From Bradyrhizobium arachidis (lineage in GTDB: Bacteria > Pseudomonadota > Alphaproteobacteria > Rhizobiales > Xanthobacteraceae), in NCBI RefSeq assembly GCF_015291705.1, contig NZ_CP030050.1:2666001-2730000 (forward strand): DNA of 64,000 nt, read 5' to 3'. The notes below the pieces were generated by a model. It saw only the letters and a program-made list of their open reading frames with translations. It was not told the DNA's origin and did not search any database. A program made the translations under genes and the position numbers. Shown here in pieces: positions 6,624 to 63,651 of the stretch (position 1 is its first letter; every line of letters starts with the position of its first letter).

Positions 6624-6721
6624 GTAGGGTGGGCAAAGGCGCGAAGCGCCGTGCCCACGGACTCTGCATGCTCCGGAAAGATGCCGTGGGCACGGCGCAA
6701 GAGCGCCTTTGCCCACCCTAC
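6624..6721. repeat. Family A palindromic element, copy 1
   Basis: A 98-bp imperfect inverted repeat starting GTAGGGTGGGCAAAGG and ending CCTTTGCCCACCCTAC. Each arm also folds on itself (GTGGGCA...TGCCCAC around GGCGC...GCGCC). In this copy both arms are of the GGCGC type. It lies between the ccrM stop and the small membrane protein gene, both on the minus strand. Confidence 0.9.
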
Positions 6722-6744
6722 ACGGTCGCGACGTGCGGCAGCAG

Positions 6745-7875
6745 CTACTCCGCCGCCATGCCCGCACGAATCTCGGCCCGCAGCTCGTCGATCAGCTTGA
6801 GGCCCTTCTTGGTCTCGACGTGCCAGAAGGTCCAGCCGTTGCAGGCCTGCGCGCCTTGCGCCACCGCGCCGATGCGGTGGATCGAGCCGACCTTGTCGCC
6901 GAGCATGATGGCGCCGTCGGCGCGGACGAGGGCGCCGAGCTTCTTCTTGGCGTCGAACAGTTTGGTGCCTGGCATGATCATGCCGCGCTCGATCAGCTCG
7001 GAGAACGCGACACGCGGGGCTTCGCGCGCGGTCATGAACGGGGCGAGGCTCTCTTCCGGCAGCGGCTCGACCTTGGCGATGCGCGCTTCGGCGGCTTTCG
7101 CATAGGTCTTGTCGCGCTCGAAGCCGATATAGGAGCGGCCGAGGCGCTTGGCGACGGCGCCGGTCGTGCCGGTGCCGTTGAAGGGATCGATCACGAGATC
7201 GCCGGGCTTCGACGACGACAGCAGCACGCGCGCGAGCAGGCCTTCCGGCTTCTGCGTCGGATGCACTTTCTTGCCGTCCGCGCCCTTGAGGCGCTCCTCG
7301 CCGGTGCAGAGCGGGATCAGCCAGTCCGAGCGTGCCTGCACGTCCTCGTTGGCGGCCTTCAGCGTTTCGTAGTTGAACGTGTAGCCCTTGGCCTTCTCGT
7401 CACGCGCGGCCCAGATCATCGTTTCGTGCGCGTTGGTGAAGCGGCGGCCGCGGAAATTCGGCATCGGATTGGTCTTGCGCCAGACGATGTCGTTCAGGAG
7501 CCAGAAGCCGAGGTCCTGCATGATCGCGCCGACGCGGAAGATGTTGTGATAGGAGCCGATCACCCAGATCGTCGCCGACGGCTTCATCGCGCGGCGCGCG
7601 GCAAGCAGCCAGGCGCGGGTGAAATCGTCGTAGGCGGAAAACGAATCGAACTTGTCCCAGTCGTCGTTGACGGCATCGACATGGGATTCGTCGGGACGCT
7701 TGAGATCGCCCTTGAGCTGGAGATTGTACGGCGGATCTGCGAACACCAGATCGACGCTGCCAGCCTGAAGCTTCGACATCTCGGCGACGCAATCGCCGAT
7801 GATGATGCGATGCGAGGCGGACTCAAAATTTGTGCGGGGCGCCCTTGCAGACGCCCCGCGACGCGACTCTACCAT
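6745..7875 (-). CDS. ccrM: Cell-cycle DNA adenine methyltransferase CcrM (GANTC)
   Basis: Beta-class N6-adenine methyltransferase of 376 residues that methylates adenine in GANTC. Motif IV DPPYN lies near residue 48 and motif [11 protein letters not shown] near residue 240. The C-terminal extension ([15 protein letters not shown] through [10 protein letters not shown]) is the DNA-binding region characteristic of CcrM. The segment [13 protein letters not shown] is nearly identical to the Caulobacter enzyme. The N-terminal 25 residues are longer than in Caulobacter. In alphaproteobacteria CcrM restores full methylation late in replication. Four GACTC sites lie in and just upstream of its 5' end, and a TTAACC half-site of CtrA type lies at 7969-7974. 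Confidence 0.96.
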
Positions 7876-7894
7876 GACTCAAGAACTCTGACTC
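7820..7894. promoter_or_regulatory. Cluster of four GANTC methylation sites at the ccrM start
   Basis: GACTC occurs at 7820-7824, 7865-7869, 7876-7880 and 7890-7894, so three lie within 30 bp around the start codon. GANTC is the target of the encoded enzyme. In Caulobacter, methylation of GANTC sites in the ccrM promoter region is known to affect its transcription. The same feedback is inferred here. Confidence 0.6.
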
Positions 7895-8296
7895 AGGCGA
7901 CGCTGTCGGCGACGCGGGACCAAACAACCGACTGGCCGTTACATTGCAGCGGCAAAGTAAAAAACGACTTAACCCGCTGCTTTTCTGAGCAGGCGTCGCA
8001 TCGCCCGCGGCATGCCGCGTGATGCGCGCAATCGCTGTGTTTTACGGTATATTTCGCATCCGTTCACGGAGCGACGGCTGCCGCGGCCGCAAATTTCTCT
8101 CGGAAAAAATTGCACGCGGACCGGAAAAAATTGCTGGTGCGGGCGTGCTGTCGCACTAGGCAATTTTTGCCGACCGGGATATTGATTAACGCAATGGAAA
8201 TTTTACCTGTGTGGCGCGTTGAGCTTTTGCGTATCTGTGCGCCGACGAGACTGAATCAGGGACCCCCAAATCAGGGACACCTAAGGGAAGACCGCC
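7876..8296. other. Divergent intergenic region between ccrM and the metallopeptidase gene
   Basis: This 421-bp gene-free stretch holds the upstream GACTC sites of ccrM, a TTAACC half-site (7969-7974) and an A/T-rich set of 13-bp repeats (8101-8172). No coding region is supported. It must carry the promoters of both divergent genes. Confidence 0.6.
8101..8172. repeat. Three copies of a 13-bp A/T-rich repeat
   Basis: CGGAAAAAATTGC occurs at 8101-8113 and exactly 21 bp later at 8122-8134, on the same side of the helix. A third copy lies inverted at 8159-8172 as GGCAATTTTTGCCG, with one mismatch. The set lies 125-195 bp before the metallopeptidase start, inside the ccrM divergent promoter region. 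A protein-binding array is inferred. Confidence 0.6.
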
Positions 8297-62068: not shown

Positions 62069-62164
62069 GTGAAAATCTCTTGCGACATGTTGCTCCGGAA
62101 CGTAAGCCCGCAAGGCATAAACGACAAGACCTCGAGCCCTGCGCTTGGGGATGAGAGAGGCCCC

Positions 62165-63499
62165 ATGACCCAGCGTTTCGATGTGATCTTGAAGGGCGGC
62201 ACCGTCGTCAACCAGGACGGCGAGGGTGTTCGCGATATCGGCATCACGGGCGGTCGCATCGCCGAGCTGGGTCCTCTGTCGCAAGGCTCCGCCGCCGAGG
62301 TGATCGACTGCAAGGGCCTGCACATCCTGCCCGGCGTGATGGACACGCAGGTGCACTTCCGCGAGCCCGGGCTGGAGCACAAGGAAGACCTCGAGACCGG
62401 CTCGCGCAGCGCCGTGATGGGCGGCGTCACGGCCGTGTTCGAGATGCCGAACACCTCGCCGCTAACGGTGACGGAAGCGACCTTCACCGACAAGGTGAAG
62501 CGCGCCCATCACCGCATGCATTGCGATTTCGCCTTCTTCATCGGCGGCACCCGCGAGAACGTGCAGGACCTGCCGGTGCTCGAGCGTGCGCCGGGTTGCG
62601 CCGGCGTAAAGGTATTCATCGGCTCCTCGACCGGTGCGCTGCTGGTGGAGGACGACGAAAGCCTGCGCCGTATTTTCCAGGTGATCCGCCGCCGTGCCGC
62701 CTTCCATGCCGAGGACGAATACCGCCTCAACGACCGGAAATCCCTGCGCATCGAGGGTGATCCACGCTCGCATCCGGTCTGGCGCGACGAGACCGCGGCG
62801 CTGTTGGCGACGCAGCGCCTGGTCAAGCTCGCGCACGAGACCGGCAAACGCATCCACGTGCTGCATATCTCGACCAAGGAAGAGATCGAGTTTTTGCGCG
62901 ACCACAAGGACGTCGCGTCCTGCGAGGCGACGCCGCATCATCTCACGCTGGTCGCGCCCGAATGCTATGAGCGGCTCGGTACGCTCGCGCAGATGAACCC
63001 GCCGGTGCGCGGCGCCGATCACCGCGCCGGCATCTGGCGCGGCATCGAGCAGGGCATCATCGACGTGCTCGGCTCCGATCACGCCCCGCATACGCTGGAA
63101 GAGAAGCAGAAGACCTATCCCGCTTCGCCCTCCGGCATGACCGGCGTGCAGACACTGGTGCCGCTGATGCTCGATCACGTCAATGCCGGCCGCCTGTCGC
63201 TGGCTCGCTTCGTCGATCTCACCAGCGCCGGCCCCGCGCGCCTCTACAACATGGCCTGCAAGGGCCGTATCGCCGCCGGGTACGACGCCGATTTCACGGT
63301 GGTTGATTTGAAGCGCAGCGAGACCATCACCAACAAATGGGTGGCGTCGAAAGCCGGCTGGACGCCGTATGACGGCGTGCGTGTGACGGGCTGGCCCGTC
63401 GGTACCTTCATCCGCGGCCGCCGCGTGATGTGGCAGGGCGAGCTGGTGACGGCCTCGCAAGGTGAGCCGGTGCGGTTTCTGGAGACGTTGAAGCAGTAG
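62165..63499 (+). CDS. Dihydroorotase-family amidohydrolase with changed metal motif
   Basis: Predicted 444-residue cyclic amidohydrolase of the dihydroorotase/allantoinase group. The usual metal motif DxHxH is DTQVHFREPG here (residues 60-69), so the first His is Gln62. The other ligands look intact: Lys in GVKVFIGSS, His in FHAEDEYR, His in HVLHISTKEE and Asp in GSDHAPH. The enzyme may still act in pyrimidine synthesis, or be a non-catalytic partner of aspartate transcarbamylase. There is no pyrB nearby. The ATG has a GAGAGG site. Confidence 0.85.
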   Translation: MTQRFDVILKGGTVVNQDGEGVRDIGITGGRIAELGPLSQGSAAEVIDCKGLHILPGVMDTQVHFREPGLEHKEDLETGSRSAVMGGVTAVFEMPNTSPLTVTEATFTDKVKRAHHRMHCDFAFFIGGTRENVQDLPVLERAPGCAGVKVFIGSSTGALLVEDDESLRRIFQVIRRRAAFHAEDEYRLNDRKSLRIEGDPRSHPVWRDETAALLATQRLVKLAHETGKRIHVLHISTKEEIEFLRDHKDVASCEATPHHLTLVAPECYERLGTLAQMNPPVRGADHRAGIWRGIEQGIIDVLGSDHAPHTLEEKQKTYPASPSGMTGVQTLVPLMLDHVNAGRLSLARFVDLTSAGPARLYNMACKGRIAAGYDADFTVVDLKRSETITNKWVASKAGWTPYDGVRVTGWPVGTFIRGRRVMWQGELVTASQGEPVRFLETLKQ

Positions 63500-63523
63500 C
63501 CGATGTGCCGTCGCCTGTTCAAT

Positions 63524-63651
63524 CCGTCATCCTGAGGTGCGCGCCATGCGGTGCTCTTGCACGGCATGGCAAGCCTCGAAGGATGAACGGCCCCGCTGGT
63601 GGCCGTCGCCCTTCGAGGCCTCCGCTGCGCTCCGGCACCTCAGGGTGACGG
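63524..63651. repeat. Family F palindromic element, copy 2
   Basis: A 128-bp inverted repeat with ends CCGTCATCCTGAGGTGC and GCACCTCAGGGTGACGG. Inner blocks GCCTCGAAGG and CCTTCGAGGCC pair as in copy 1. It lies between the dihydroorotase-like gene and the rhodanese gene. Confidence 0.88.

Follow-up and report, generated by a model that had tools for sequence, protein, structure and literature searches.

REP-type repeats of Bradyrhizobium arachidis lie in conserved seats behind gene ends and change family among related genomes

Introduction

Repetitive extragenic palindromic (REP) repeats are a known feature of Bradyrhizobium chromosomes. The available text of a 2013 study (Di Nocera, De Gregorio and Rocco, PMC3733652) describes REPs of the genus that end in GTAG or CGTC and lie preferentially in convergent or unidirectional gene gaps, near stop codons. 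Two elements of B. japonicum USDA 110, Br-REP1 and Br-REP2, are described in the accessible text of PMC5082802, and inverted REP pairs in extragenic space are known in Pseudomonas as REPINs (PMC3116915). The function of REP repeats, if any, is still debated. Here we analyze the long inverted repeats in a 64,000-nucleotide (nt) stretch of the B. arachidis genome, bases 2,666,001-2,730,000 of a 9.87-Mb single contig, hereafter the window, together with their counterparts elsewhere in the genome and in related genomes. These inverted repeats are REP-type elements of the chromosome, most of them pairs of short hairpins joined head to head and many tagged with GTAG or CGTC, and both their kind and their placement bias are already known for the genus from the 2013 study. 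What they add is that the places they occupy tend to persist among relatives while the family in place changes. The repeats are probably DNA passengers in safe harbours behind gene ends, about one to a seat, kept there by selection against damage to promoters and operons.

Family relationships of the repeats

Elements were detected by a de novo inverted-repeat search, clustering, and a search with the resulting family library. The letters A-H and S are our own naming, and families B, D, and F were told apart by prototypes drawn from the window. The 19 elements of the window fall into nine families: A has seven members, B, E, G, and H have two each, and C, D, F, and the small family S have one each, in agreement with the count in an earlier note on this DNA. 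No Rfam family matched the window at gathering scores.

Family A belongs with the GTAG REPs. Its terminal GTAG is unpaired, its unit stems of 7-8 bp fall inside the 5-13 bp of the GTAG super-family, and its units form head-to-head dimers, as is frequent in that super-family at spacings of 20-100 nt. The family A sequence GTAGGGTGGGCAAAG, in which the terminal GTAG lies outside the stem, matches the genome exactly 132 times in forward and 139 times in reverse orientation; a reversed control has no match. Both tags are intact in 42 distinct dimers of 70-124 nt from the loci scanned in this genome and in its relatives. Like GTAG-14 and GTAG-3 in the available text of PMC3733652, family A combines a GTAG end and a 7-8 bp stem with head-to-head dimers, high copy number, and placement behind stops; the number GTAG-14 is assigned from that paper's description, not from a comparison of consensus sequences. 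Palindromic flanks were considered as a target-site signature of family A. Pairing outside the GTAG, observed against shuffled, was 0.71/0.74, 0.60/0.48, and 0.50/0.27 at positions 1, 2, and 3 (42 elements); we took the excess for element subtypes and dropped the idea.

Unlike the published GTAG REPs, and unlike the Pseudomonas REPINs with their cognate RAYT as the accessible text of PMC3116915 presents them, the repeats of this genome come with no intact RAYT that we could find. Pfam gave no match to Y1_Tnp (RAYT-type transposase) at E 0.001 in this genome, and a search with the RAYT of a relative returned only one 33-residue fragment. The missing RAYT does not exclude GTAG membership because the available text of PMC3733652 allows for lost RAYTs. 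A Y1_Tnp match is present in 33 of the 61 genus genomes searched, where family A half-sites number from 0 to 271 per genome. Ten RAYT loci from the genus (2-3.4 kb each) were inspected and none carries family A; one of them, L151, is flanked on both sides by a related family, A2.

At L151, in the relative G038, the RAYT-like gene occupies a 235-codon stop-to-stop frame between the A2-family GTAG repeats, and the locus is likely a REPtron.

Families C, D, E, and F bear CGTC or a near form of it. Family E (window 43817-43849 and the sample copies) fits the CGTC REPs throughout: like CGTC-1 and CGTC-3 in the available text of PMC3733652, it has a CGTC end, an AT-initial 9-bp stem, a 5-nt loop, a CCA tail, head-to-head dimers, and no dedicated transposase. 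Bradyrhizobium CGTC-1 occurs there with other loop lengths as well. Families C, D, and F fit only partly the AT-initial 8-9 bp stem, 4-5 nt loop, and CCA tail given in that text, their stems measuring 6 bp in C, 11 bp with a long loop in D, and 8 or 10 bp in F, of which the 8-bp one begins with GT. The printed core of Br-REP1, CCGGAATCTCGAGATTCCGG, was found in sampled D-type dimers, which likewise lie in 3' untranslated regions and convergent gaps; the D type is one of nine families here, whereas the accessible text of PMC5082802 describes two elements. We matched B, G, H, and S to no published family.

Placement across the genome

The codon model used to call genes had as its training set the window plus 99 stretches of 20 kb spaced evenly along the genome; all gene starts are predicted ones. 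Gaps outside the window were counted in 83 of the 99 stretches, the 16 with less than 75% called coding sequence being excluded. The inverted-repeat scan covers gaps of 20-1500 nt and the family-library counts gaps of at least 30 nt. Like the published GTAG and CGTC REPs, the elements favour convergent and unidirectional gaps and lie near stops.

In the window all six convergent gaps longer than 60 nt are filled, as are 11 of the 25 tandem gaps of at least 30 nt and none of the eight divergent gaps. The earlier note had listed the same six convergent gaps with the same coordinates, and each contains an element of a repeat family; it had also reported no element in any divergent gap, which we confirm, though it counted nine such gaps where we call eight. 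As a rule for the genome, its claim holds in direction across the 83-stretch sample, while the filling of every convergent and no divergent gap is a local extreme. By the sampled rates for each length class, the probability that all six convergent gaps of the window are filled is 0.025, and that no divergent gap is filled 0.69. The window is an element-rich region.

Outside the window, inverted repeats with a score of at least 14 occupy 140 of 1048 gaps (convergent 48/186, tandem 82/643, divergent 10/219). Only one of the 1048 gaps has such a repeat after a dinucleotide-preserving shuffle, which excludes a chance origin. Counted by family matches, the filled gaps of at least 30 nt number 89 of 179 between convergent genes, 140 of 592 between tandem genes, and 10 of 219 between divergent genes. 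Among gaps of at least 100 nt, 80 of 123 convergent, 136 of 390 tandem, and 10 of 204 divergent gaps are filled (Fisher p 4e-33 for convergent versus divergent and 5e-9 for convergent versus tandem). With element length subtracted, the ratio of observed to expected elements by bases is 2.71 in convergent, 1.13 in tandem, and 0.13 in divergent gaps (94, 147, and 11 elements). The counts thus depart from the gap-length expectation that the earlier note had set against its own proposal, and the divergent depletion is real.

Convergence itself is not special. In gaps of at least 30 nt there are 94 elements per 358 stop ends (0.26) between convergent genes and 147 per 592 (0.25) between tandem ones; density per stop codon is the same, and convergent gaps are rich because they have two stop ends and no promoter. 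Within tandem gaps the elements keep to the stop side: they start a median of 16 nt behind the stop and end a median of 77 nt before the next start. Of 140 tandem gaps, 122 have the element closer to the stop than to the next start (70 would be expected by chance), and 32 have it no more than 30 nt from that start (57.7 +/- 4.9 by chance). The divergent gaps with an element, ten in all, are 201-560 nt long.

Elements are also unevenly spread along the chromosome. Stretches below 61% GC contain 2 elements in 16, and the remaining 83 stretches contain 249. Ten sampled 20-kb stretches between 1.58 and 2.49 Mb (GC 57-60%) have no element of any family, and no exact family A half-site occurs across about 1 Mb (1,544,236-2,541,885 of this genome). 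This region is likely a large acquired island and may be of the symbiosis type. Density is highest at 0-1.5 Mb, with 86 elements in 16 stretches, and low at 3.45-5.74 Mb, with 24 elements in 24 stretches. In the sampled stretches the cumulative GC skew reaches its maximum near 5.1 Mb, and elements seem to thin out towards the likely terminus.

Conserved seats with exchanged occupants

To follow single gaps among relatives, orthologous gaps were placed via both flanking proteins, in 20 relatives for the window and in eight for a second stretch, L092. Gaps of more than 1200 nt and relatives lacking either flank are excluded, as are family S and unclassified inverted repeats from the seat counts. 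We call an element-holding gap a seat, named by its first position, and one gap in one relative a cell.

Gaps filled here are filled in 213 of 267 relative cells (tandem 118/145, convergent 95/122). Tandem gaps that are empty here are filled in only 1 of 184 cells, and divergent gaps that are empty here in 2 of 123. The tandem gap L092 12846 is filled here and in none of eight relatives. The family in place, however, differs. The seat before glyQ (34571; glyQ was identified by Pfam PF02091) holds A, D, E, or H, with no empty genome among 21, and the gap L092 17693 has five families across the six filled genomes of seven. On a midpoint-rooted tree of 16 concatenated genes (22,055 columns), parsimony requires at least 12 family changes at the glyQ seat, nine at 21258, and seven each at 9236 and 37841. 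Conserved seats with exchanged occupants are the part of these results that we did not find described: the literature searched, including the available text of PMC12306157, PMC3116915, PMC3686654, and PMC8049555, does not describe family exchange at conserved gaps, most subscription papers, figures, and supplements lying outside that search.

Seat histories were simulated for 12 of 13 seats (46401 was left out) on a coarse grid of rates, doubles being counted for distinct families only. A run was scored when it had no more empty cells and no more double cells than observed and at least as many family changes. With independent gain and loss at the best rate, none of 200 runs had such an outcome at four seats; the share was 0.5% at two seats, between 1.5% and 5.5% at another five, and 11% at the last, a poor fit at 11 of the 12 seats (best-rate P <=0.055). 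A model with at most one copy reaches 59.5-100%, a share that is no likelihood because its limit on doubles is met by construction. Seats 30481 and 41867 have many doubles, and there the one-copy model does not describe the data.

At several sites the sequence from the stop onwards, in which the element lies, drifts, and a conserved region follows before the next start. The 60 nt before the next start are conserved at 0.96 at the filled tandem seat 34571, 0.93 at L092 14840, and 0.91 at 19515, while the 30 nt behind the stop of these three seats have an identity of 0.54-0.57 (random 0.50).

Among multi-family gaps, 9 of 72 look nested, some of these being cross-matches between D and F; targeted insertion into older repeats was considered on this basis as the cause of exchange and is left as a possibility. 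In three relatives the gap at 21258 is only 13 nt long and retains what appears to be the end of a B element, by eye a deletion scar. A wider set of 21 mapped loci includes close relatives, and one of its loci, L162, probably comes from the same genome as G040; eight of the 21 have an element at the seat before glyQ. No family element and no inverted repeat of score 12 lies at this seat in the other 13, which include the loci of B. retamae, Afipia, Nitrobacter, and Rhodopseudomonas.

Maintenance of the seats

Selection against the disruption of promoters was proposed in the earlier note, and three observations support it, for operons as well: the roughly 8-fold depletion per base in divergent gaps, the shortage next to starts, and the drifting stop-side location at several sites. 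In the passenger explanation, which we consider probable, insertions would land widely and survive only where no promoter or translational coupling is broken. A new element would land beside or inside an old one, which would then decay, a plausible route of exchange; the family A element inside a family H element at 9957-10242 would be an intermediate of this route. The stems would be kept by the needs of the repeat as single-stranded or cruciform DNA, or by youth, and not as mRNA. Several findings weigh against this explanation. No intact transposase that would make new copies was found in this genome. Four of the ten filled divergent gaps have an element within 30 nt of a called start, and the divergent gap L092:6147-6418 (family H) is filled in six of eight relatives, with starts as called. 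Some seats are never empty (empty tips 0/21 at 34571, 0/19 at 9236, 0/21 at 41867, and 0/19 at 30481), and with pure passengers refilling must then be fast or targeted. The filled seats 6555, 9236, 30481, 46401, and L092 18904 are only 0.69-0.74 conserved before the start. Conversely, 24001 (identity behind the stop 0.54, filled in 0/20), 28657 (0.56, 0/16), L092 7334 (0.52, 0/8), and L092 7696 (0.47, 0/8) drift yet are never filled; the first of these, the tandem gap 24001-24309, drifts behind the stop and is conserved before the start, yet is empty in 20 relatives.

A second role named in the earlier note, in ending transcription, is not supported by the sequence tests. Strict terminators were scored, a looser finder having been discarded after it matched 94 of 227 divergent gaps. 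The elements are hairpins directly behind stops, as intrinsic (Rho-independent) terminators would be, but a GC-rich hairpin with a U-tract is not what they generally form: a T-tract follows the element's own hairpin at only 8 of the 178 convergent and 4 of the 140 tandem sense ends that have an element, and that they are such terminators is scarcely credible. Separate strict terminators are about equally frequent with and without an element, at convergent ends (12/178 versus 10/180, p 0.67) and at tandem ends (8/140 versus 40/452, p 0.29). The elements might instead be interchangeable 3' hairpins of which any family suffices, blocking 3'-5' exonucleases or read-through after Rho-dependent termination to the advantage of any transcription unit that ends in one. 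Much of the seat pattern is what such hairpins would give, since seats remain filled although the family changes, empty and double cells are few, four seats are never empty, and the elements sit right behind stops in a genome where few convergent ends (22 of 358) have a strict intrinsic terminator. Wide gaps point in opposite directions, a separate terminator being somewhat rarer with an element in tandem gaps (5/67 versus 33/254, p 0.29) and if anything commoner with one in convergent gaps (3/12 versus 3/62, p 0.05). Against such hairpins, and against a role in termination as well, most orthologues of the six convergent gaps that lack an element are a mere 0-13 nt in length (16 of 23, from five of the gaps). 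The glyQ seat is empty in most of the wider set, other Bradyrhizobium included, and the ten island-like stretches manage without any element. Stems kept as sense RNA should favour G-U over A-C mismatches on the sense strand, and these do not. In 312 tandem elements of this genome and its relatives (elements with N excluded) there are 179 G-U and 178 A-C mismatches, a comparison diluted by family-fixed mismatches, and in consensus stem pairs 31 and 33, a small sample with a 95% interval of 0.36-0.61 for the G-U share. The equal counts leave an RNA role unsupported, although the test has modest power against weak selection and to that extent does less for the passenger explanation. On balance we think functional 3' hairpins unlikely. 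In the available text of PMC3733652, G-T pairing within stems is treated as an indication of an RNA role, and for this genus the equal counts weaken that argument from their frequency.

The earlier note had further suggested supercoil control, here taken as absorption of supercoils between converging genes, for example at gyrase sites. Convergent gaps are indeed the richest per base, and gyrase targeting of Escherichia coli REPs is cited in the available text of PMC3733652; positive supercoils should accumulate between converging genes, however, and the density per stop is about equal in convergent and tandem gaps, which makes this explanation very improbable. A family-blind selected seat is possible. 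Its fuller form, that the ends of transcription units are conserved seats selected to hold about one long palindrome of any family, as an insulator or 3'-end device that does not depend on sequence and is maintained as unrelated families repeatedly replace one another, we regard as doubtful. Conserved seats with exchanged occupants do keep a functional reading open. Persisting seats with a changing family separate the effect of place from the effect of sequence, and the filled and empty versions of one gap in related species are natural replacement experiments for a role in 3'-end formation.

Elements of the window and neighbouring features

Beginning with the convergent gaps, 9957-10242 has the order H-A-H: a family H element (9966..10218) is in two halves (9966-10027 and 10151-10218), and a family A element, found by library match, is nested in its spacer (10032..10137; arms 10037-10054/10115-10132). 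Relatives have H alone, A with a partial H, or A alone in this gap. Family A also fills 12985-13117 (13028..13117, found by inverted-repeat search and library match), 21258-21395 (21280..21386, library match; A, B, C, or D in 16 of 20 relatives), and 27018-27152 (27033..27140, inverted-repeat search and library match; A or C in 9 of 16 relatives, and an inverted repeat of different sequence in one more). The gap 37841-38098 lies behind the gene following glyQ, presumably glyS from its position, and has a family D element (37861..37975; B or D in 18 of 19 relatives). Family E occupies 43806-43904 (43811..43904; E, H, or G in 15 of 20 relatives).

The tandem gaps contain three of the seven family A elements. 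One is a GTAG-tagged head-to-head dimer at 6616..6722 (library match; arms 6624-6642/6703-6721), another lies at 34581..34689, with a 63-residue open reading frame on one side and the conserved stretch preceding glyQ on the other (all 20 relatives have A, D, E, or H here), and the last is at 59844..59950 (library match). A family B element at 9239..9382 corresponds to B or G in all 18 relatives with both flanks found. The second B element (30653..30795, inverted-repeat search, library match, and prototype) shares its gap with a family G element (30858..30992, library match). At 19533..19652 is a family H element, with E and/or H in 12 of 20 relatives; seven of the eight empty versions are exactly 99 nt long. 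Library matches also located family S at 58116..58161, family E at 59152..59232, and family G at 63520..63652, the arms of the last being found by the inverted-repeat search, as was the family C element at 41942..42039, which matched the library too. The family F element (46423..46542) lies in the tandem gap 46401-46590, which is only 8-9 nt long in 4 of 12 relatives; the element seems to have split a tight operon junction.

Two hairpins of the window stand outside the repeat families. One (5385..5412) resembles an ordinary intrinsic terminator and lies in the 59-nt convergent gap 5373-5431; the eighth convergent gap of the window is 3 nt. The other, at 11184..11227, is an AT-rich palindrome that resembles an operator and lies next to the start of a gene whose product has MarR and acetyltransferase domains. 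Behind the DUF1236 gene, window 37976-38098 contains a strong minus-strand hairpin with a T-tract and a second paired region, both recurring by eye in most of 19 relatives; this may be an ordinary terminator or a conserved 3' RNA. In window 51551-53367 a HAMP-domain frame stops at 52879 and what by eye appears to be the chemotaxis-signalling part continues in another frame (52702-53367), which looks like a frameshift, either in the gene or in the sequence.

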